The position numbers and the translations under genes were made by a program. The notes under the pieces are model-generated. The model ran no database searches, was not told the DNA's origin, and was given only the letters and a program-made list of their open reading frames with translations. Positions 1,346-57,742 of a stretch of 64,000 nucleotides of DNA are shown in pieces. Origin of the DNA: Acanthococcus lagerstroemiae (Eukaryota > Arthropoda > Insecta > Hemiptera > Eriococcidae); NCBI GenBank assembly GCA_031841125.1, contig CM063113.1, positions 29,533,312 to 29,597,311 of the forward strand. The letters are read 5' to 3'. How positions within the stretch are numbered: position 1 is the stretch's first letter; each line of letters opens with the position of its first letter.

Positions 1346-4257
1346 GCCAGTCTGCCTTGTAGGTAAACCAGCGCATTGTCTCTCAATTTGAGCTCCGTCC
1401 TTGTGAGGAAACCTAATTTCAGTAACAGAGGCGAGAGAAACAGAGAATGAGCTCTTGGACAGAACAGGGCCAAGCTCATTTTGAAATGAGTTTACTGGTT
1501 GAATCTTTGACACACGCTGGAGTTTTAACTCAACTAATTGACAACTCATTTAGAAGAGGAGTTGATTCAACGAGATGCGTTACAAACACATTAAATCTGA
1601 TGAAGTGCCAACTCCCAAGGGAGGTACCAAAGAAGGAGAAATTTCTGCAGGGTCCTCGAGTAACAAACACCAGGAAAATCTGAAGAAGCTCACCATTAAC
1701 CCGATGAAAATCACTGTTCTTTAGTCAATACTGAAAACCGCGATAATGATAGCGCGGTTCGTACTTTCATATATTATTTAAATTAATCACAATGTAAACA
1801 CAGATTCAGTTGTTGTATTTGATATTCAAGTGGCTCTCTAAATAATAATGAATATACGTATCGACTGATGAATAAATTTTCAATCTGACATCCATTTTTA
1901 TTAACCATATGTAATCGCACATCAAAGTATCTTGCATTAAAAGTACTTATGCTTGTTTGTTACTAACGTAAATGACATTTCCTTTATACACCATGAAACT
2001 GCTCTAGAATTGCGAATCTGAGTCTCGACCCTCATCTGCATAACTTGCACAACATACCACAACTACACAGGTATACTTAATTTATGCGAAATTTTTCTTA
2101 GAAAAATCGGGGAAAACAAAATAATAGTCTCAACTCTTAGGCAACTATATCGAGCCCTCTAGCAGAATTACTTCGTAAACTGTGGTAATCTATTCTGAAA
2201 AACCAGTCACGCCACATTTTTCCGAGTTTTCCGAATTCTAACGACTGTTTTTTTTCTCTCCCTAATTATGAAACAAAAAGAAAAACAGACAGAGAGAAAA
2301 CAAGAGAAATAATCGTGTGTGAATGTAATAATAAAAAAGTGCCGTACATTTTTCACCTCTAAACAGAATATTAAAATATTTGACAATTCGCCTCGTGAAC
2401 TGCGAATTACAGTAGAGTTGATGAAACTCGAAAAATTTAATTTTAGCACGCGATGACGACAAAGGAATAGGAAAATGGCGCCCACTGACACCAACTCAAA
2501 CTATGTATTGCTTCACTAATGAATTTTGGAATAAATTATAATATTTAGAATAAAGGTATTGTTCTACAGAAAGTAAAACGAGATGATTAAACTTCACAAG
2601 GAATGATGGGGTTGTAATCATCAGCATCGAGAATCCATTTTCAATAATCTTTTTACAAAAGCCGACCGTGTTCTGAGTTAATTATTAACGTAATTTTATT
2701 CTGTTTTGAAACTTTGCCGAAATGAATACATAGAACTTTGCTATCTACAGTTCAACTCGATAAGTAAAATATAATATGTATTACTATATAGTTTGAGCGC
2801 ACTTGTTATCTTCATAATTTATGCGAACTTAAACTAATAATATTTTTTAAGAATAACTTTTCCATCGAATACTAACAAAAGCATCTTAAAAGTTTCCAAC
2901 TGAGCTTCAATATTAATATTTCATTCGCATTTTCAGATAGATACGGCTACACTTAGTCTGCCTAAAGTTCCATTTTTTGAAAATTAAATTACTTTATTAG
3001 CCCCCACTCCACCCCGTTTAACGAGAAGAAAATGTCCCGAAATCATGAATAGTAACCTATAAGTAAATAACAAATGGTACGAAGGGCAGGCGCTCCCTCT
3101 CACTACCATAGACACGCTTGAAATTCCTCAGACCCGGACTTTCTTGGGGCTCAGATTTTCCATCGTCTGATCTGCACATTGTCTAATCTGTTTTTGAGTC
3201 TTCGAGCGCAAAATCGTAATTTTTGAAAATGGCCCTAGACAAATTGCATTACCTTTTATTTATTTTTCCACCCTGATGTTTCCCTCCGAGCCCGGCTTTT
3301 CTCTTGACTGTCCTGATTTGACGTTAGTTAAGATCTCAGTTAAAATCTGCGGCATCAGGGTGAGCGGGTCGAAAGTCAAAATGAAACAAAATGCAATTAC
3401 GGATTTAGGACCGAAAAGGTCTTTTTAGTGCCGGAAATAGGTTTTTACTTCGAACCGTTTTTCCTCCAGACACTGGAAATTTGGCATTTCTCTCTCAAGA
3501 TGGCTGTGGTATTCAATCATATTTCTGATTTTTCCCTTGTCCATTAAAAGAACGAATATAGTAAAAATTATAGTAGGTAGGTTTGACAGTATAGACAGTA
3601 CTAAGACGTCGGTTCACTCACATGCCCGCAACGAACCTTTATGAAGAGAAACAGATGACGGGAAAGAGGTGAAGTAACAACGGGGTTGTAGAAAAGAAAA
3701 ACTGGTCAGCCTGTAGAAAGAAAGAGGTTCATTTTTAGGAAATTTCAGACTTAACATTTTACATTTGACAAGAAAAGACTCTACGTTTTACATTTGATAA
3801 GAAAACAAAACGACGGCGCATGGATGGTCGGTTGATACTACATATCTATGACTAGTAGAATAGTTCAGGCGCGGATCTGGGGGGAGCAATCTCCCCAATA
3901 AAGAAAATATATGTGGGGAGGAGTCAGCAAAAAAAAAAATTTCCACGCAATTCGCGCACTTTCCTCCCATGATCGTCTGAAATTATGCCTGGAATAGTTG
4001 ACCGTTACGAATTGTCGTTGGAGCCGTAGGTATACCTACTTTGAGTCATTAAGCTACGCTCAGCACTTAGAATGCGAGTGAATCTTCACTCAGTTTTAAA
4101 AAGCGCAAACGAACGGCGTACTAACTGAGGGCATACGCGATTTCAAGGTTAATGTTGCGTTTTGGTACAATTTCGTGCAGTAATGCCGAAAGTTGCTTTA
4201 ATCTTATTTCAATAAAGGTATACGTCTTTCTAATATTAACATTTAAACATCGTATTA
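1346..4257. other. Non-coding AT-rich stretch
   Basis: No supported gene. The open frames are under 100 codons, lack splice context and have no recognisable motif. A short segment at 3870-3920 (GGCGCGGATCTGGGGGG followed by CCCC runs) resembles the end of a GGCGGATC-type hAT MITE such as the one at 9596, but I found no partner end or target duplication. Confidence 0.5.
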
Positions 4258-11210: not shown

Positions 11211-11623
11211 ACTGACTGACTGACTCAACACTTCATTCGCCTGCGGGTACCACACTCCTTGTATCAGCCTGTATGCAGATGAGTCTGCAACCACGGGAGA
11301 GCATTTTCATGTCTGCCTCGCGGACTGCGCCGACATGGGAATGTCGTCGTCCGCTAAGCTCCGCAGCGCCGCTTCATATTTTTTGGCGCGCTCATTTTTG
11401 GACGTTACGTTCGCATGATGAAGACATTCTCATGTCGGCGCAGTCCACGAAGCAAACATGAAAATGCTCTCCCGTGGTTGCAGACTCGTCTGCAAGATGA
11501 TGCACTAGCAGAGCGCAGTACTCGCAGGCTGGTACAAGGAACGTGATGCTCGTATGGGAATACAGGCTGACACAAGGAATGTGGTATTCGCAGGCGAATG
11601 AAGTGTTGAGTCAGTCAGTCAGT
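11211..11623. mobile_element. Foldback/MITE element, copy 1 (413 bp)
   Basis: The left end is ACTGACTGACTGACTCAACA and the right end is its inverse. The inverted repeats run inward through CTTCATTCGCCTGC and, further in, GAGAGCATTTTCATGTCT. The left arm is shorter than the right: the part of the right arm carrying GTACAAGGAACGTGATGC has no left partner, so the left arm has an internal deletion. No transposase frame and no clean target duplication are visible. A longer copy lies at 56458-56943. Confidence 0.85.
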
Positions 11624-29168: not shown

Positions 29169-29176
29169 GTTTGAGG

Positions 29177-31057
29177 CAGGTCCGTTTCCCCAGCAGAGCC
29201 CATTTCAGATTCGAAGTTAAAAATTTCAGGATCGTTAGTGCTACGTTAGTGCTGATTGGTGCCGTAAAAATTTTCATTAGTGCTGCTCCCTTCCATACTT
29301 TTTAAAAATTTAATTTGGGAGCTGCCGGGGAAACGGTGGCACCGCCCATGAGGCCTAGCTCACCCGAAACACTCAGAATCGTTAGTGCTACATTAGTGCT
29401 GGTTAGTGCTGTGCAAATTTTCGTTAGTGCTCCCTCCTCCTTCCTACTCTTAAAAAATGAATGTTAGCGCCGCTGGGGAAATGGTGACACCACCCATGAG
29501 GCCTGGCTCACCCAAAACACTCAGAATCGTTAGTGCTACATTAGTGCTGGTTAGCGCCGTACACATTTTCGTTAGTGCGGCCCCTCTTCCCAAAAATAAT
29601 GAATTTGGGCGCTGCTGGGGAAACCGTGGCACCGCCCACGAGGCCTAGCACACCTGAAACACTCAGAACCGTTTGTGCTACGTTAGTGCTGGTTAGTGCT
29701 GTGCAAATTTTCGTTAGTGCAACCATGGCCCCTGCCCAACATGAATCCTCTTCCCGAGGTAGGCTACTCCTGCCGAAAGAGGCGATCAAGAGGCATGGTA
29801 GGCAGACAAGACGGTTCCCCACGGCGGAGGAAGAGGTGAAGGAGCAGATCGATTTCTGGGCTACCAATTCCCCAGCTCCCCGCCTTAATTTTTTTAAATA
29901 ACATTGAAAGGAATGCAGAACATATGCTGAAATTCTGAAACAAATCGGAACTAACGAAGCACTAAACACTCAGAGAGTTTTAACTCTGAAAACGAAGTTG
30001 AGGGTCACCCCCACACGACCGTTTATTTTTTTAATAAGTCAGGAAGATACAACACTAACGCTCATACTCTAGAACCAACCAGCACTAACATAGCACTAAC
30101 AATTCTAAAAATTTCAGCGCAAGGATTATAGGGGGGGGGGTATCATGTCTCGGGGTCCCACACAATAATTATTTTAATAGGTTGGGAAGTAATGCGGTAC
30201 TAAAGCTTATATTCTGGAACAAATCAGAACTAACCTAGCACTAATATTCCTAGAAAATTCCGCACGAAATTCGAAGGAGGGGGCTAAGGTTTCTCCAGAA
30301 CCCACGCTCTTTTTTTTTAAATGTGGATGTACATGACTGCAGGAGTTGGCGGGTTGCATTAATGATACTCTGCACAGCACTAACCAGCACTAACATAGCA
30401 CTAACGATTCTGAGTGTTTCAAGTGAGCCAGGCCTTCTGAGCGATGCCACCCTTTTCCCCAGCAGGGCCCAAATTAATTTTTTTAGAAGTAGGGAAGGGG
30501 GGCAGTACTAACGAAAATTTGCACAGCTCAAACGAGCACTAACGTAGCACTGACGATTCTGAGTATTTTGGGTGAGCTAGGCCTCATGGAGGGGGGAGGA
30601 GGTGTCACAGTTTCCCCAGCAGCGCCCAAATTCATTTTTTTTGGAGGGGGAGGGGTAGCACTAACAAAAGTGTGTACAGCACTAACCAGCACTAACGTAG
30701 CACTAACGATTCTGAGTGTTTTGGTTGAGCTAGGCCTCATTGGCGGTGCCACCGTTTCCCCAGCGGTGCCAACATACATTTTTTTAAAGTAAGGAGGGGG
30801 GCAGCACTAACAAAAATTTGTACGGCACTAATCAGCACTAATGTAGCACTAACGATTCTGAGTGTTTCGGGTGAGCTGGGTCTCATGGGTAGTGCCACCG
30901 TTTCCTCAGCAATGCCCAAATTCATTTTCCAAAAAGTATGGAAGGGGGAAGCACTAACGAAAGCTTGTACGGCACTAACCAGCACTAACGTAGCATTAAC
31001 GATCCTGAAATTTTGGACTTCGAATCTGATATGGGCGCTGCTGGGGAAATGGACCTG
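29177..31057. mobile_element. Complete foldback (FB-like) transposon, 1,881 bp, with subrepeat arms and target duplication
   Basis: The ends are CAGGTCCGTTTCCCCAGCAG on the left and its near-exact inverse on the right (CTGCTGGGGAAATGGACCTG). The arms consist of tandem units of about 146-153 bp. Four left units begin with ATCGTTAGTGCTA-type sequence at 29231, 29378, 29526 and 29678. Five right units, inverted (TAGCACTAACGAT), are at 30396, 30545, 30698, 30844 and 30991. Both sides are flanked by GTTTGAGGCAG (29169-29179 and 31057-31067). Allowing for overlap with the ends, this means a 7-9 bp target duplication. The middle (about 29735-30350) holds a GC-richer unique segment and decayed units. 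Drosophila FB and Galileo elements have this design. No transposase is visible, so this copy must be mobilised by another element. Confidence 0.9.
29725..29901 (+). other. Unique GC-richer core of the foldback transposon with an open frame
   Basis: The last part of a 108-codon frame (MAPAQHESSSRGRLLLPKEA, then EEVKEQIDFWATNSPAP) lies here and ends inside the element. Its composition differs from the arms. It could be a captured fragment of another sequence or the rest of the element's own gene. I recognise no family. Confidence 0.35.
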
Positions 31058-31064
31058 TTTGAGG

Positions 31065-31352
31065 CAGAGACGTCAAACTATCATGAAAATCTATACAGAT
31101 AATTATCGATAACTTTTTCTAGTATGTATCAATATATATCAGTAACTGTTGATTACTTGTCTCCCTGTTACTTAGCACAGTCTACCATTTATGTATGTTA
31201 GCACAGTCTTCCATGTCAGCGATACGTCACTTAGCATAGTTTACCACGGTTTAACCTTTGTTTAGCGCTATTATTATAGTTATTGATTAGCCAAATGACA
31301 TATCAATATGGATTTTTTGGTAAAAACATTAATCGATAGTTATCGATACCTC
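31065..31352. repeat. Short stretch with TATCGATA and CTTAGCACAGT repeats
   Basis: GTTACTTAGCACAGTCTACC and two variants lie between 31160 and 31250. They match, inverted, the block at 10640-10745. ATCGATA palindromes stand at both ends (about 31100 and 31340), possibly the ends of an older element into which the hAT at 31361 inserted. Confidence 0.5.
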
Positions 31353-48398: not shown

Positions 48399-48577
48399 TT
48401 TGAAGTTACTGAATATTCGTGTTTCGGATTATTGTATCTGTAATCCGAACCTCCCTATCAACATGGTTCACAGGATGCTGGGACGTGAACACTTTAAAAA
48501 GTGTTGGCCTATCCAAGTAAAAAGTCTCCACCTGGCGGATGGAAAGAGGAACCCCTTGAAAAAAGGACGCATGTGTT

Positions 48578-48725
48578 TAAAGTGTGGTCCAGTTAAGAAA
48601 CATAACTGGCTACCCGCAATACACATCGATATATGGGTATTTTGAAGTCGGAGGGGAAAGATGAGTTCGAGAAGACGTTATCAGCGCCGTAAACAAATTA
48701 TGTTTCTTAACTGGACCAGACTTTA
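48578..48725. repeat. Hairpin-forming inverted repeat, unit 1
   Basis: TAAAGTGTGGTCCAGTTAAG, AAACATA (48578-48604) is mirrored by TATGTTTCTTAACTGGACCA, GACTTTA (48699-48725). The arms are 27 bp with one mismatch and the spacer is 94 bp. The 81-codon frame crossing it has no recognised motif. Confidence 0.85.
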
Positions 48726-49005
48726 TTAATGCGAAGGGTGAATTTTATATTTTGATGAATTCATTATGAATTTTTTATTCCATCAAAAAGTTTGAGCTAG
48801 AGTATTGTCGCATGGAACACTGTAATGGTCAGAAAGTGGAAGAAACCACACAATTTATCAACGCAAATGTATTGTTGTAAATTTTGATCCCTGAACACGA
48901 TCCAGGTACCAGATCGTAGTCATTGGCGCGTGTAATAGCACATTTTCAAAAAATTCTATGGAACAGCCCGTCAGTTAGTCAGTCAGTCTGGATTATAGAA
49001 ACCCT

Positions 49006-49198
49006 TTTTTCCTAATTTGTTCTCAACCCGAGCCTTGGAATCCGCCCTTTCGAGCATTACTTCAGAGATGTGGGGGGGGGGGGGGTTGTTAGGCGAAAAA
49101 CCGGCTTAGGTCAAAATTTGGCGAGTTGCTACGTGGGCTCCAACCCGGGACCTCCAGATTCCGATACCAATGCGCTACCCACTCGGCCAACCAAACCC
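49006..49198 (-). mobile_element. tRNA-derived SINE inserted in the LINE, unit 1
   Basis: The minus strand starts with the same tRNA-like head as the 11740 copy (TTTGGTTGGCCGAGTGGGTA, then GGAGGTCCCGGGTTGGAGCC) and has the same body. A long G-run (C-run on the SINE strand) has grown in the middle. The direct flanks are ATTATAGAAACCCT at 48992-49005 and 49199-49212, a 14-bp target duplication. Confidence 0.92.
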
Positions 49199-49212
49199 AT
49201 TATAGAAACCCT

Positions 49213-50148
49213 ATTATCGAGAATCGTTACCGACAAAAACGGAAATTACTTTGAAATCGGGAAAGGAGTCTGACAGGGCGAGCCACTGTCACCTATCCTT
49301 TTTAATCTGGCATTGGAGGAAATATTTAGGAAACTTGATTGGGAAAATAAAGGTCTAAATTTAAATGGCACGAGTCTCCAACTTCAGATTTGCAGACGAT
49401 ATTGTTTTAATATCAAACTCAATGGGGGAGCTAGAGGAAATGATACACGAACTTAACAAAATTGGAAAAACAGCTGAATTGACAATAAACACTGATAAAT
49501 CAAAAATTATAACAACCTCAACGAACTCAACAAAAATCAAGATAGGAAACAAAAATCTTGAAGTAGTCGCAGAAACAGTCTCACTAGAAAATAGAACCAA
49601 AAAGGAGATAACACGTAGGATCACACTGGCGTGGAAGAAGTTTTGGACACTAAAGCACATCTTTAAAGGAAAATTCAAAAACATGCAAAAAGGCGAAATT
49701 TTTAATATGTGCATAACACCAGTTTTGACATACCTATGACTCCCCCACTTGGTCTCCTGCTTTCAGACCAATGAAGAAAATTGAGACAACACAAAACTCC
49801 ATAATGAGGTCGATTCTAGGCTTAAAAATCAAAGACCAAGTCAGTATAAAAAACATTTGGAAAAAACTACCCAACATCAAAAACTGTGTACAATTAATCC
49901 GAAATTTAAAATGGTGGTTGGCGATACATATAGCCAGACTACCTCAAGACAGGATAACCTATTAAGCTACCTTCTGGTATTTAAACCAATTCAAAAGAAA
50001 AAAGAGCAAACCAAAAACTAGGTGGAGGGACGAAATCGATCGATTTCTAAAAAATAAGCTTTTCCATCGAGTGGCACAAGATCGCACAGAATGGGAGAGG
50101 GTGAGGTGTACCTTTGCCCACTACGGGCCGAGAGCATACTTGGAATAG
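49213..50148 (+). pseudogene. RTE-like LINE, reverse transcriptase core to C-terminus, unit 1
   Basis: It begins at the SINE's right target copy with NGNYFEIGKGV, a stop where Q would be expected, then GEPLSPILFNLALEEIFRKL. After a frameshift a 124-codon frame (49365-49739) carries NFRFADDIVLISNSMGELEE (FADD at 49389-49400), LTINTDKSKIITT, NRTKKEITRRITLAWKKFWT and CITPVLTYL. A second shift near 49735 leads to MKKIETTQNSIMRSILGLKI. An in-frame stop near 49962 comes next, and the end reads KPKTRWRDEIDRFL, RVAQDRTEWERVR. The domain order and ending fit RTE-type endonuclease-reverse transcriptases. It is inactive: two shifts, two stops, and no endonuclease. Confidence 0.9.
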
Positions 50149-50361
50149 TGAACGCTCTTCGAAGGTGCGACCGAGGAAGCTAAATAGGTATTATTATAAA
50201 ACTAAATAAAGGTATAATAAAAAATTATCGATATACTTGAAGCTGTATGTTGAATAATATCGTCGTTTTCACATCCTGAACCCCTGTGTAACATTGTTGG
50301 TAGGGGTTACAGTCAGAATAACTTTAAAGATAAAGACAGCAACTCCAAGAACTCTATTTTT

Positions 50362-50614
50362 CCCGATGCGCATTACCAAGAAACCTGCCAGTTACCCGTG
50401 GTTCCCCTTTAGTTACCTGAGTATCTGGCGGGATTAATTATCCTTTAGTTACCTGAGTAACTGATGGGATTAATTATCCTTTAGTTACCCACGAAAAAGC
50501 TACCCATTTCCAAGATTGCAACCCTCAGTTACCCTCAGATTACCCAGAAACCCGTCAGTTACCCGTTGTTCCCCTTTAGTTACCTGGGTATCTGGCGGGA
50601 TTTCGCGCATCGGG
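50362..50614. mobile_element. MITE with CCCGATGCGC ends, unit 1
   Basis: The left end CCCGATGCGC is exactly mirrored by GCGCATCGGG on the right, 253 bp in all. Inside, CCTTTAGTTACC(T/C) occurs four times and TATCTGGCGGGATT twice. No target duplication is clear and there is no coding capacity. Confidence 0.8.
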
Positions 50615-52086
50615 TTGATATACCTGACGGTATCATCTGTAATTTTCAAGTTCAGCCCATTCAGTTAAGCTTTAAAAGAGGGAGTTTCTAACAAAGATTT
50701 CCATAAATGGATTTAGGGTTTCTGAAACTTGAGTAAGCAATCTTTTTTCATACTTTTACGTATGTATTTGATTTCCATGGTCTGTAATGTTTAAATTCGA
50801 GAGGGTAAATTCAACGAAGGCCACTGAACTTTGAATTTACTTTTTCTCAGAAATTCTTGATAGTGACACAATCGCACATTAATGAAAACGAATTTTCATG
50901 TTCAGATCTATTTTTCGACCTAACTTGTTTTAAAAGCTTCAAAGCAAAATTGCAGAGTTTCTCACGGGAAATGCTTTTAAACTTGGATCCCTCGGGTGGG
51001 CCCCCTCAAAATTATTCGATTTCAAAAAAATATAGGGTGCTGGGTTCTTATACCACAGGGAAACATTTCAAAAATTGTTGAAGTTTGGACCACCCTATTT
51101 CGACACCGGCTGTCAGAGCTCAAATTTTTCTGGACTGGCAGCGCAGTACTCTCGGTATATTTATTCATCATGTTCAAATTTCATCGCTTTCCACTTTTTT
51201 TACTTCACAACCTGCAGGAAATGAATCCGCGAACGCGTTATTGACATTCAGACCACGGCACCCGCATGAAGTGCAAAAATTCGAGTACACGGTTTCCGTT
51301 TTCTCTCGAGCGTGAAATGTCACTCTACACTCCAGCTCCTTGGGAATATCAAACCGAGCAATATTCTTACCGTCTCGAATATCTGTCGGCCTCCGTTGCT
51401 CAATTTTCGACCGAATATTAAATATCGCCGTACGGCTGAACTCAACACCCCATCACTATGCGGTATGGTTCCCGCGAGAGATGTAAAATTTTTTGACATA
51501 GTTTTTGCCACACATAGCCTTCAACCCTCAAGGACGTGTTTTGTCGAATTTACCGCACAAAACCACGTCTCGTCGGGTCGTCTCTGAAACATAACAATAA
51601 ACTCAATTATAATTGACCTTTATTACGAGTGGTCGTATACAGCGACAAAGGATTGCACTTCTTTATTGCTCCAGATACTTTTACAAGAAAATATAAGGTG
51701 ACCGGCCGAAAACTAGGTGATAGCTGTCTGGCTATTAGCTCGTTGAAAATTTATTATTCGGTGGATCGCGATTGTAGAACGGAAAAATAAGCTTGAATTT
51801 CATCAATAAACAATCCAAGTTGATAAAATTCCGTCGTAGAATTGCGTAACGAGGCGAGGCGTGTTCGGGGAATATTGAATTTTATTTCCTTTATATCGCC
51901 GTGCTCTGTGCACCGTCTTTATTGTTATCGACGCTACAATTGATAAATTATTTTCCATTGATAATGCTGGTATGCGGCCCAGGTAATCCTGCGAAATGCG
52001 CGTACAGATGCACTCGAACTTTTTGGAATGTGGCGACGGTTGCGAAAAAATTGTGAATGTTTCTCGCAAGGTGCGGTCGGTTGCGA
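50615..52086. other. Unrecognised part of duplication unit 1
   Basis: Overlapping frames of 60-91 codons on both strands without a known motif. Low repeat content. The same sequence lies at 54303-55774. Confidence 0.4.
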
Positions 52087-52265
52087 TTTGAAGTTACTGA
52101 ATATTCGTGTTTCGGATTATTGTATCTGTAATCCGAACCTCCCTATCAACATGGTTCACAGGATGCTGGGACGTGAACACTTTAAAAAGTGTTGGCCTAT
52201 CCAAGTAAAAAGTCTCCACCTGGCGGATGGAAAGAGGAACCCCTTGAAAAAAGGACGCATGTGTT

Positions 52266-52413
52266 TAAAGTGTGGTCCAGTTAAGAAACATAACTGGCTA
52301 CCCGCAATACACATCGATATATGGGTATTTTGAAGTTGGAGGGGAAAGATGAGTTCGAGAAGACGTTATCAGCGCCGTAAACAAATTATGTTTCTTAACT
52401 GGACCAGACTTTA
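52266..52413. repeat. Hairpin-forming inverted repeat, unit 2
   Basis: Copy of the 48578-48725 hairpin, with one change in the spacer (T at 52337 for C at 48649). Confidence 0.85.
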
Positions 52414-52692
52414 TTAATGCGAAGGGTGAATTTTATATTTTGATGAATTCATTATGAATTTTTTATTCCATCAAAAAGTTTGAGCTAGAGTATTGTCGCA
52501 TGGAACACTGTAATGGTCAGAAAGTGGAAGAAACCACACAATTTATCAACGCAAATGTATTGTTGTAAAGTTTGATCCCTGAACACGATCCAGGTACCAG
52601 ATCGTAGTCATTGGCGCGTGTAATAGCACATTTTCAAAAAATTCTATGGAACAGCCCGTCAGTTAGTCAGTCAGTCTGGATTATAGAAACCC

Positions 52693-52886
52693 TTTTTTCC
52701 TAATTTGTTCTCAACCCGAGCCTTGGAATCCGCCCTTTCGAGCATTACTTCAGAGATGTGGGGGGGGGGGGGTTGTTAGGCGAAAAACCGGCTTAGGTCA
52801 AAATTTGGCGAGTTGCTACGTGGGCTCCAACCCGGGACCTCCAGATTCCGATACCAATGCGCTACCCACTCGGCCAACCAAACCTC
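52693..52886 (-). mobile_element. tRNA-derived SINE, unit 2
   Basis: Duplicate of the 49006 copy, with the same 14-bp target duplication (right copy at 52887-52900). It differs by one G in the G-run and one inserted T next to the right flank. Confidence 0.92.
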
Positions 52887-52900
52887 ATTATAGAAACCCT

Positions 52901-53836
52901 ATTATCGAGAATCGTTACCGACAAAAACGGAAATTACTTTGAAATCGGGAAAGGAGTCTGACAGGGCGAGCCACTGTCACCTATCCTTTTTAATCTGGCA
53001 TTGGAGGAAATATTTAGGAAACTTGATTGGGAAAATAAAGGTCTAAATTTAAATGGCACGAGTCTCCAACTTCAGATTTGCAGACGATATTGTTTTAATA
53101 TCAAACTCAATGGGGGAGCTAGAGGAAATGATACACGAACTTAACAAAATTGGAAAAACAGCTGAATTGACAATAAACACTGATAAATCAAAAATTATAA
53201 CAACCTCAACGAACTCAACAAAAATCAAGATAGGAAACAAAAATCTTGAAGTAGTCGCAGAAACAGTCTCACTAGAAAATAGAACCAAAAAGGAGATAAC
53301 ACGTAGGATCACACTGGCGTGGAAGAAGTTTTGGACACTAAAGCACATCTTTAAAGGAAAATTCAAAAACATGCAAAAAGGCGAAATTTTTAATATGTGC
53401 ATAACACCAGTTTTGACATACCTATGACTCCCCCACTTGGTCTCCTGCTTTCAGACCAATGAAGAAAATTGAGACAACACAAAACTCCATAATGAGGTCG
53501 ATTCTAGGCTTAAAAATCAAAGACCAAGTCAGTATAAAAAACATTTGGAAAAAACTACCCAACATCAAAAACTGTGTACAATTAATCCGAAATTTAAAAT
53601 GGTGGTTGGCGATACATATAGCCAGACTACCTCAAGACAGGATAACCTATTAAGCTACCTTCTGGTATTTAAACCAATTCAAAAGAAAAAAGAGCAAACC
53701 AAAAACTAGGTGGAGGGACGAAATCGATCGATTTCTAAAAAATAAGCTTTTCCATCGAGTGGCACAAGATCGCACAGAATGGGAGAGGGTGAGGTGTACC
53801 TTTGCCCACTACGGGCCGAGAGCATACTTGGAATAG
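52901..53836 (+). pseudogene. RTE-like LINE, reverse transcriptase core to C-terminus, unit 2
   Basis: Same sequence and same breaks as 49213-50148, with the catalytic FADD box at 53077-53088. Because the disabling changes are shared, the LINE was already dead before the duplication. Confidence 0.9.
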
Positions 53837-54049
53837 TGAACGCTCTTCGAAGGTGCGACCGAGGAAGCTAAATAGGTATTATTATAAAACTAAATAAAGG
53901 TATAATAAAAAATTATCGATATACTTGAAGCTGTATGTTGAATAATATCGTCGTTTTCACATCCTGAACCCCTGTGTAACATTGTTGGTAGGGGTTACAG
54001 TCAGAATAACTTTAAAGATAAAGACAGCAACTCCAAGAACTCTATTTTT

Positions 54050-54302
54050 CCCGATGCGCATTACCAAGAAACCTGCCAGTTACCCGTGGTTCCCCTTTAG
54101 TTACCTGAGTATCTGGCGGGATTAATTATCCTTTAGTTACCTGAGTAACTGATGGGATTAATTATCCTTTAGTTACCCACGAAAAAGCTACCCATTTCCA
54201 AGATTGCAACCCTCAGTTACCCTCAGATTACCCAGAAACCCGTCAGTTACCCGTTGTTCCCCTTTAGTTACCTGGGTATCTGGCGGGATTTCGCGCATCG
54301 GG
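54050..54302. mobile_element. MITE with CCCGATGCGC ends, unit 2
   Basis: Duplicate of 50362-50614. Confidence 0.8.
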
Positions 54303-55774
54303 TTGATATACCTGACGGTATCATCTGTAATTTTCAAGTTCAGCCCATTCAGTTAAGCTTTAAAAGAGGGAGTTTCTAACAAAGATTTCCATAAATGGAT
54401 TTAGGGTTTCTGAAACTTGAGTAAGCAATCTTTTTTCATACTTTTACGTATGTATTTGATTTCCATGGTCTGTAATGTTTAAATTCGAGAGGGTAAATTC
54501 AACGAAGGCCACTGAACTTTGAATTTACTTTTTCTCAGAAATTCTTGATAGTGACACAATCGCACATTAATGAAAACGAATTTTCATGTTCAGATCTATT
54601 TTTCGACCTAACTTGTTTTAAAAGCTTCAAAGCAAAATTGCAGAGTTTCTCACGGGAAATGCTTTTAAACTTGGATCCCTCGGGTGGGCCCCCTCAAAAT
54701 TATTCGATTTCAAAAAAATATAGGGTGCTGGGTTCTTATACCACAGGGAAACATTTCAAAAATTGTTGAAGTTTGGACCACCCTATTTCGACACCGGCTG
54801 TCAGAGCTCAAATTTTTCTGGACTGGCAGCGCAGTACTCTCGGTATATTTATTCATCATGTTCAAATTTCATCGCTTTCCACTTTTTTTACTTCACAACC
54901 TGCAGGAAATGAATCCGCGAACGCGTTATTGACATTCAGACCACGGCACCCGCATGAAGTGCAAAAATTCGAGTACACGGTTTCCGTTTTCTCTCGAGCG
55001 TGAAATGTCACTCTACACTCCAGCTCCTTGGGAATATCAAACCGAGCAATATTCTTACCGTCTCGAATATCTGTCGGCCTCCGTTGCTCAATTTTCGACC
55101 GAATATTAAATATCGCCGTACGGCTGAACTCAACACCCCATCACTATGCGGTATGGTTCCCGCGAGAGATGTAAAATTTTTTGACATAGTTTTTGCCACA
55201 CATAGCCTTCAACCCTCAAGGACGTGTTTTGTCGAATTTACCGCACAAAACCACGTCTCGTCGGGTCGTCTCTGAAACATAACAATAAACTCAATTATAA
55301 TTGACCTTTATTACGAGTGGTCGTATACAGCGACAAAGGATTGCACTTCTTTATTGCTCCAGATACTTTTACAAGAAAATATAAGGTGACCGGCCGAAAA
55401 CTAGGTGATAGCTGTCTGGCTATTAGCTCGTTGAAAATTTATTATTCGGTGGATCGCGATTGTAGAACGGAAAAATAAGCTTGAATTTCATCAATAAACA
55501 ATCCAAGTTGATAAAATTCCGTCGTAGAATTGCGTAACGAGGCGAGGCGTGTTCGGGGAATATTGAATTTTATTTCCTTTATATCGCCGTGCTCTGTGCA
55601 CCGTCTTTATTGTTATCGACGCTACAATTGATAAATTATTTTCCATTGATAATGCTGGTATGCGGCCCAGGTAATCCTGCGAAATGCGCGTACAGATGCA
55701 CTCGAACTTTTTGGAATGTGGCGACGGTTGCGAAAAAATTGTGAATGTTTCTCGCAAGGTGCGGTCGGTTGCGA
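54303..55774. other. Unrecognised part of duplication unit 2
   Basis: Same as 50615-52086; no gene supported. Confidence 0.4.
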
Positions 55775-56457
55775 TTATTCACGAGCAGCGTCGTATGAAC
55801 TCTGTCTTAATCTTCAACACATCAAATCAAACCAAATCAATTTCTTTCCCTCCAACATATTGGTTAATAATACCAGGTACATATGCAACGAATAATAAAA
55901 TGTATTGCCGATGGGGTCTTGAACAAGGGTTGAAGTCGGGTCCGACTATGAAGCTGGTCCAGACTTTTCAAAACTCTGTAATGTCCCTTTGAACTCTTCA
56001 GCATCTTTCAAGACCGTTGAATAGGGTGAATCGTCAAAATTTGTTTCGAAATTTTTAACGCGACCCAGGTAAAAAGTTGCCTTTGGCGAAAAAGTGTTCA
56101 AGATTTTTGACATTTTCCTGTCTTTACTTTGGCACACAAATCGGAAAAACGTTACTTCCATGCGCCACGTTTCACACGTTACGCGTTACATATAAGGAAT
56201 GAAATAATCATTTCCATAGAAATTTTACTTTGACATTTTCTAGTCTTTACTTTGGCACATTCCAGGCATGGTATAACACAAATGGGAAAAACGTTACATT
56301 TGAAGAGGAACGAAAAGGAGTAACGAAAAAGAATTATAATTTCCATGGAAATCATTTTGATGTTAATATTTTTATGTTTTATGTCTTCGGAAAAAAGCGT
56401 TACTTTGGAGCGTGACGAAAAGAGAGCGTTACGAAAAATAACAATAATAATAAAACT
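55775..56457. repeat. Repeat region left of foldback copy 2
   Basis: From about 56100 it holds two or three copies of TTGACATTTTC(C)TGTCTTTACTTTGGCAC-type sequence (near 56105, 56230 and, partial, 56390). It also holds GCGTTACTTTGGAGCGTGACG. The last 60 bases match, inverted, the sequence right of foldback copy 1. The whole may be part of a larger element. Confidence 0.6.
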
Positions 56458-56943
56458 ACTGACTGACTGATTCAACGCCTTATTCGCCTGCAAGTACCAC
56501 ACTCCTTGTATCAGCCTGTACTCCCATGCACGCATCACGTTCCTTGTACCAGCTTGCGAGCATTACGCTCCGTTAGTGCATCATCTTGCAGACGAGTCCG
56601 CAACCACGGGAGAGCATTTTCATGTCTGCTTTGCAGACTGCGTCGACATGAGAATGTCATTGTCCAGCGAACGTAGAGTCGAAAAAACGAGCGCGCCAGA
56701 AAATATAGAGCGCCACGTGCACTGCGGATTGTAGCGGACGACGACATTCTAATGTCGGCGCAGTCAACAAAGCAGACATAAAAATGCTCTCCCGTGGTTG
56801 CTGACTTGTCGGCAAGATGATGCACTGGCAGAGCGTAGTGCTTGCAAGCTGGTACAAGGAACGTGATGCTCGCATGGGAATACTGGCTGATACAAGGAGT
56901 GTTATACTTGCAGGCGAATAAGGCGTTGAATCAGTCAGTCAGT
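56458..56943. mobile_element. Foldback/MITE element, copy 2 (486 bp), near full length
   Basis: ACTGACTGACTGATTCAACG at the left is mirrored by TTGAATCAGTCAGTCAGT at the right. The arms are about 205 bp and include TTATTCGCCTGCAAGTA, GTACCAGCTTGCGAGCAT, GCATCATCTTGCAGACGA and GAGAGCATTTTCATGTCTGC, all found inverted in the right arm. The loop is about 70 bp with GCGCGCC. There is no coding capacity. The left arm is complete here and supplies the part missing in copy 1. Confidence 0.9.
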
Positions 56944-57742
56944 TTACTCTGAAGCCTCCTCACCACGGCAATTTTGGAGGGTTTACCGTTGTGCGCCAAA
57001 GTAATTTTGAGGCTTTTTTCACATCGCATCTCTTATGCAGTACAGTTCCGGCCTCACAGAGCTACACCTTTTCCAGAGGGAGCAAATCGAGTTTTCCAGA
57101 GGGGCAAGCTGACACTTAAGCTCCCAAATTTCAACGAATAAACAAAACAAAGCTTTTCACATGGATTTTCAAGCCTGAATTTCGAAAACATAATCTTCCA
57201 GGAGGAAAGCTAAATTTCACCATCACTCCGACGCTCCTGTCATGTGCAGCTCTGACTCTGACCGTCAGTTCTTTTTCGGGTTTTAATTAGCAATAAACAA
57301 CAAAAAGTCGACGTCGACGACAATATCGGCTTCAACTCGATTTTTCAATCTATTCAGCGTGTCGACGAATTCGTCGAGTCAGAAAAGTGACCGGTTTTAA
57401 ATGTCGACAAAAGTGTCGAATTTAGTATCAGCTGTGTTTCCGGGGTTGTTCAACTTATCAGTCGAGTTCAATTTTTTCGCTTTGATTTGTCCGGATCAAA
57501 AATCTGATGGGCACTATTCTATTCGAAATCAACGACTCAAGAGACCTACTTTGATACGTTTTGTTCAACTCCTCAAGCCGATTTAGTTTTTACCCTTTTG
57601 TACCCTAAATTTGGAATTTTGGGACCAAATCAATATGGGATCAAAAATTTTATGCAATATTCGATTTTGTCAAATTAGTGTGATTACTGAGTGAATTTTA
57701 CATATCAAGAAAAAAGACCACATCAAAATCTCAACAATCAAA
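56944..57742. other. Non-coding stretch
   Basis: Near 56990 GTGCGCCAAAGTAA resembles the CCAAAGTAA words left of the foldback. 57305-57420 is dense in GTCGAC. No gene recognised. Confidence 0.4.

Follow-up and report, generated by a model that had tools for sequence, protein, structure and literature searches.

The question raised by this locus is whether a repeat-rich segment in a 64,000-bp stretch of the Acanthococcus lagerstroemiae genome (the window, C8:29533312-29597311, in an assembly of 438 contigs and 658 Mb) is an inserted foldback transposon, as an earlier note made from the letters alone had claimed, and, if so, to which class it belongs and how it moves. Inspection of the window delimited an element of 1,879 bp at positions 29178-31056 (29169-31065 including the duplications), the parts of which are as follows.

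29169..29177, no strand: left target-site duplication, GTTTGAGGC
29178..31056, no strand: foldback element of 1,879 bp, seemingly non-autonomous
29178..29211, plus strand: left terminus, AGGTCC followed by GTTTCCCCAGCAGAGCCCATTTCAGATT, differing from the 27-mer end pattern at one position
29178..29723, plus strand: left arm, inner limit approximate, with units starting at 29226, 29373, 29521 and 29663
29724..30335, no strand: centre, limits approximate, common to related loci at ~79-86%
29725..29901, plus strand: open frame of 58 codons within the centre, judged non-coding
30054..30283, minus strand: two degenerate unit copies in the centre, 73% alike
30336..31056, minus strand: right arm, inner limit approximate, with minus-strand units starting at 31008, 30861, 30715, 30562 and 30413
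31023..31056, minus strand: right terminus, inward AGGTCC followed by ATTTCCCCAGCAGCGCCCATATCAGATT, differing from the 27-mer end pattern at two positions
31057..31065, no strand: right target-site duplication, GTTTGAGGC

The best self-inverted alignment of the arms extended over 554 bp at 85% identity and scored 624 bits, far above the maximum of 37.4 bits in 200 dinucleotide shuffles, bearing out the proposed foldback structure with tandem-repeat arms in opposite orientations. Four units of ~147 bp were recognized on the left and five good ones on the right, with about three more degenerate units further in. The spacings were 147, 148 and 142 bp on the left and 147, 146, 153 and 149 bp (minus strand) on the right; the earlier description, with four copies in one arm and five in the other at 146-153 bp, was thus nearly right, the left spacing really being 142-148 bp. 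Likewise, the duplication described as 7-9 bp is exact as claimed, and its length is precisely 9 bp (GTTTGAGGC). The longer frames of the element, of 142 and 127 codons, lie over the arms, in repeat sequence. The 58-codon frame of the centre was rejected as a gene, since among 10 copies the minor-allele fractions by codon position (0.062, 0.060 and 0.052) revealed no codon-position bias and several copies had stops or frameshifts. The window copy therefore seems to encode nothing, hence to be non-autonomous, and would need a transposase from another source; the word intact, as used in the earlier note, holds for its ends, arms and duplication and not for its coding capacity, which is seemingly nil.

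In a DNA search of the genome, 40 of 314 candidates were scored and yielded 398 matches; 38 stretches (L009-L046) were taken from the best of these, and two of the stretches (L026 and L027) turned out to be opposite ends of a single element. At the threshold used, 23 loci including the window had both terminal-specific ends, while the remaining loci had one recognisable end or none, or were cut by the stretch edge. With up to three mismatches allowed, the terminal-specific 27-mer was found at 219 places in the genome, 115 of them forward and 104 reverse, compared with no occurrence of the reversed control pattern in the 658 Mb; the ends are accordingly shared by other genomic copies, as the claim of a transposon demanded. 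Among the 100 exact ends listed, neighbouring ends less than 40 kb apart formed 26 inward-facing pairs (plus then minus), spaced 0.5-3.1 kb, no outward-facing pair and one same-strand pair. The exact end pattern had no match in public viral contigs, and the exact unit pattern had none in public viral contigs and genome contigs.

Comparison of the 9-mers flanking 22 two-ended loci revealed 11 exact pairs, 4 with one mismatch and 3 with two, so that a 9-bp duplication with at most two mismatches was present at 18 of the 22, versus 1 of 462 cross-pairs between loci (exact cross-pairs, 0 of 462). Since L033 and L043 count as one insertion (see below), 21 of the 22 loci are independent. Four loci (L015, L023, L024 and L025) were without a matching 9-mer at the expected place, having 4 or 6 differences. 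The count leaves out the 23rd two-ended locus, L029, which has no duplication (its flanking 9-mers differ at 7 places) and a left end with 4 mismatches; also outside the 22 is L032, the left end of which fails the 27-mer test, yet CTTCGTCAC is readable on both its flanks. Because the outermost positions of the 9-mers differ from copy to copy and agree within a copy, the outer C...G was assigned to the duplication. A 7-bp duplication with C...G termini was thereby rejected, and the ends previously read as CAGGTCC/GGACCTG were corrected to AGGTCC.../...GGACCT. Some 200-bp ends of different loci were identical over ungapped columns (L020 and L021, L021 and L028, and L033 and L042), which points to recent movement.

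The joined flanks of 17 copies were compared with the collected loci, and paralogous unoccupied sites were found for two of them, L045 (three places) and L021 (one place). For L045 the alignment in L026 covered 127 bases to the left and 138 bases to the right of the junction, and those in L011 and at ~241-370 of the window had shorter left sides; for L021 the alignment in L040 extended over 164 bases on the right and only ~20 on the left, and is thin. A single copy of the 9-mer was present at the empty junctions, identical for L021 and slightly different for L045. The repeat at 241-370 of the window is thus itself an unoccupied form of the L045 insertion site. A whole-genome search with the junction of the window element (40 scored of 79 candidates) gave no clearly spanning match, one repeat match extending five bases beyond the junction. 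The empty sites that the earlier note had suggested looking for were therefore found for L045, with good support, and thinly for L021, and no clear one was found for the window site.

Across 18 complete copies, the arms ranged from 1 to 16 forward and from 1 to 33 reverse units. Evidence for the way in which they vary came from L033 and L043, which were taken as one copied insertion because their flanks are homologous (about 110 and 197 bp, 94%) and their duplications are reverse complements of each other (ATTATTTTA and TAAAATAAT). In the alignment of the two, the gaps corresponded to a 135-bp arm piece (about one unit), 73 bp near one end and a 10-bp indel; differing by about one unit, they indicate that arms change after insertion. 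Both foldback copies (L033 ~1518-3059 and L043 ~1834-3175) lie within an apparent other inverted-repeat element with outer ends near CAGGCCCGTGCGCA, which seemingly carried the insertion to its second place. Unit pairs with an identity of 1.00 (to two decimals) were found at lag 2 in L021 and at lags 6, 8, 15 and 21 in L022, as expected for multi-unit duplication. Such pairs, together with the satellite-like arms, would also suit a satellite or palindromic tandem array formed by inverted duplication and flanked by coincidental 9-mers; the constant termini, the dispersed inward-facing end pairs, the matched 9-bp duplications and the unoccupied sites make this origin extremely improbable. Homogenization of arms within a copy was considered as well and gave no strong signal, the outer 200 bp being 0.917 identical between a copy's own pair of ends and 0.903 in cross comparisons (18 copies).

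A consensus built from 136 units of 16 copies (C13 and L043 left out) revealed that the first ~58 bases of the unit, with four GTTAGTGC boxes, are strongly conserved (20-base means of 0.82-0.92) and that the second half is less uniform (0.62-0.76) and seems to come in two types, in one of which the terminal motif GTTTCCCCAGCAGCGCCCA reappears in reverse. The conserved block starts ~49 bp from the element end. Nearly every ~147-bp unit has this GTTAGTGC-box block again, and many also contain a copy of the terminal 19-mer, without the outer 6 bases at which the end would be cut.

The earlier note had proposed looking for a longer copy with a P/hAT/Mutator-type transposase. Two large members bounded by the same ends were found.

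C13:365995-401323: large member of 35,329 bp, with the exact duplication ACAAAGTTA on both sides
C4:38802304-38821329: large member of 19,026 bp, with the exact duplication TCAAATTTA on both sides

The arms of the C4 element have six and seven anchored units. Nested in the C13 element is an LTR retrotransposon of ~10.7 kb (C13:376544-387279; L047/L048), which carries reverse transcriptase and RNase H domains and is young, its LTRs being 99.9% alike over 750 bp. Transposase matches in C13 were ordered on one strand (375917-376123, 389082-389738, 389713-390228, 392647-392907 and 393388-393741) and were taken as predicted exons. The C4 interior, as read outside the 5.8 kb of C4:38814000-38819799, was without the LTR element and was 98-99.8% identical to that of C13 where aligned, and its minus-strand frames of 173, 406 and 562 codons matched transposase relatives. 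The same ends thus also flank longer copies that contain pieces of a transposase, most likely of the Mutator/NOF-FB kind. Both genes are broken, that of C13 missing part of the catalytic stretch and that of C4 leaving the frame late in the catalytic piece.

An alignment of three transposase pieces found 33 relatives, its own members included. Those with a species name were a "NOF-FB transposable element protein" and one uncharacterised protein of Aphis craccivora, and two proteins of Macrosiphum euphorbiae, one of them "MULE transposase domain-containing". The Pfam MULE model (PF10551) matched 12 of 29 relatives at E<=1, with a best E of 1.1e-4; these matches, like every other MULE match seen, scored below the gathering threshold; the NOF-FB-named relative, P0031, had no MULE match at E<=0.1. 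Neither FLYWCH nor THAP turned up in the Pfam scans of the ORFs or among the 21 families listed for the 29 relatives, many of which are fragments lacking the N-terminus; within this reach, the lack of FLYWCH speaks against the label Phantom (N-terminal FLYWCH plus MULE domains). Structure models offered as evidence of a DDE core were discarded as too poor (pLDDT 53.8 and 60.8); the best PDB match of the latter model, a foamy virus integrase core at E 0.28, was not significant, and a PDB sequence search with two transposase pieces gave no match at E<=10 for one and a non-significant match at E 0.26 for the other. The C-terminal part of the transposase (L051:609-2294, minus strand) matched a zinc finger of the SCAND3 type with an E of 4.4e-6, which is at the curated cut-off.

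On the relatives of the transposase, the class is most likely the Mutator superfamily. A duplication of ~9 bp, as in the FB class and the Mutator superfamily, is what the 18 of 22 loci (at most two mismatches) had, and by its structure, with long inverted tandem-repeat arms of variable length between copies, and by its duplication the family is an FB-type element. Neither of the marks of Galileo and the P superfamily, a 7-bp duplication and a THAP/P transposase, was found. A Galileo-like foldback moved by a THAP-domain transposase would share the long, internally repetitive arms, in which the number of repeats changes between Galileo copies too; according to its descriptions, Galileo makes 7-bp duplications and has a THAP/P-type transposase, whereas here the duplications are of 9 bp, the transposase found inside the elements resembles MULE/NOF-FB, and the Pfam scans of the ORFs gave neither a THAP nor a P-element model. 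Membership of the P superfamily is therefore very unlikely.

We consider it very probable that the window holds a non-autonomous, FB-type member of a cut-and-paste family that is served in trans by a Mutator-like transposase, inserts with a 9-bp stagger and has its arms altered after insertion. A Mutator-like transposase of the MULE/NOF-FB type, made elsewhere in the genome, would bind the repeated arms, cut at the AGGTCC-type termini and insert the element with a 9-bp stagger, which would give rise to the 9-bp duplication; units of ~147 bp would afterwards be gained or lost, the presumed route being unequal exchange or slippage. We infer that a transposase of the C13/C4 type mobilizes the window copy and that it would bind to the conserved half of each unit.

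Another possible source of the activity is a sister transposase, the C13 and C4 genes being passengers. The genome contained 49 matches to the transposase relative P0004, 15 of which were in frames of at least 600 codons, mostly at 33-40% identity; at this identity the matches probably belong to other subfamilies. One sister gene on C10 is an uninterrupted frame of 1,099 codons (L050:2469-5765, minus strand) with weak matches to MULE (E 0.054) and, in its C-terminal part, to ubiquitin-hydrolase (E 0.11). That such sister genes are open and the C13 and C4 genes broken speaks for a sister as the mover. The C13 and C4 transposase, on the other hand, is flanked by the ends of the family itself in two elements whose shared interiors, as read, are as closely alike as given above, and the C10 gene lies outside a truncated family arm on its contig, so that we regard movement by a sister as unlikely and retain the C13/C4-type transposase as the preferred candidate. 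The C10 gene was also rejected as an internal gene of the family, on account of this position and because the arm lies between a different inverted repeat pair. This pair (C10:1153646-1154805 and C10:1159496-1160647; L050/L038) consists of 1.15-kb inverted repeats of 85% identity around the truncated arm, and is possibly a different long-armed element.

Between its arms the family has at least three kinds of centre. The first is common to C13, L020, L021, L025 and L028, with L023 joining via L021, and another to C13, L041, L042, L044 and L045. Since these two kinds are parts of the large interior, the short copies that have them look like internal deletions, and a transposase-bearing parent of ~19 kb may, through internal deletion, have given rise to the short copies. 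The third kind, that of the window, was found at ~79-86% in L009-L016, L019 and L046 (in L014 and L046 in part) and to a smaller part in L039. Because it matched the large elements over 67 bp only (73%, E 8.7e-6), descent of the window copy from the same parent as the large members is likely but less certain.

The family is new and of a known kind, with ends, arms and transposase pieces together in one genome. It resembles FB and FB-NOF of Drosophila in having long inverted tandem-repeat arms that vary between copies, and the link to FB-NOF is otherwise by the name of the one A. craccivora relative. It differs from Drosophila FB, the repeats of which are short, in its unit of ~147 bp, and also in its large members of 19 and 35 kb. 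Tm1 of root-knot nematodes, placed in the Phantom subclass of Mutator/Foldback, is described as having FB-like composite arms, mostly 9-bp duplications, non-autonomous groups sharing ends and a MULE-type transposase whose best matches come from aphids and mosquitoes; unlike the family described here, it has an arm motif of 13-15 bp and a 496-aa protein with a FLYWCH domain, which was not detected here. Tetris of Drosophila virilis, for which the Mutator superfamily is suggested, is described as a non-coding foldback with 8-10 bp duplications and with arm repeats of ~220 bp that can seed satellite DNA; no transposase-bearing member is reported for it, whereas here two large members hold transposase pieces. 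The remark in the earlier note that FB-type elements are rarely annotated outside Drosophila was thus partly right, nematode Tm1 and others having been described. In the titles and abstract openings listed by the literature searches, no report of a foldback element in hemipterans was recognised, which does not prove absence.

A tested parallel to the proposed binding of the units is Galileo, the arm repeats of which are described as carrying extra transposase-binding sites: its THAP domain binds both at a site ~70 bp inside the end and within the arm repeats. We raise, tentatively and with some doubt, the possibility that the arms are self-expanding landing platforms, in which the number of units would tune the load of MULE/NOF-FB transposase on each end, size would be traded for mobility and satellite-like arrays would be seeded by the same mechanism. 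If so, sizes of up to 35 kb and tens of units in one arm would have been traded for mobility, and FB arm repeats would for the first time have a demonstrated function outside the P superfamily. The presence of exact ends, varied arms, short derivatives and two large members in one genome makes such a role of the arm repeats testable.

Two further repeats were noticed in the window. A short MITE-like element with ~64-bp inverted ends (94%) was present at 11211-11623 and 56389-56945, with relatives elsewhere in the window. A 3.69-kb head-to-tail repeat of 99.9% identity (48399-52088 and 52087-55776, spanning 48399-55776) is either a very recent duplication or an assembly artefact.
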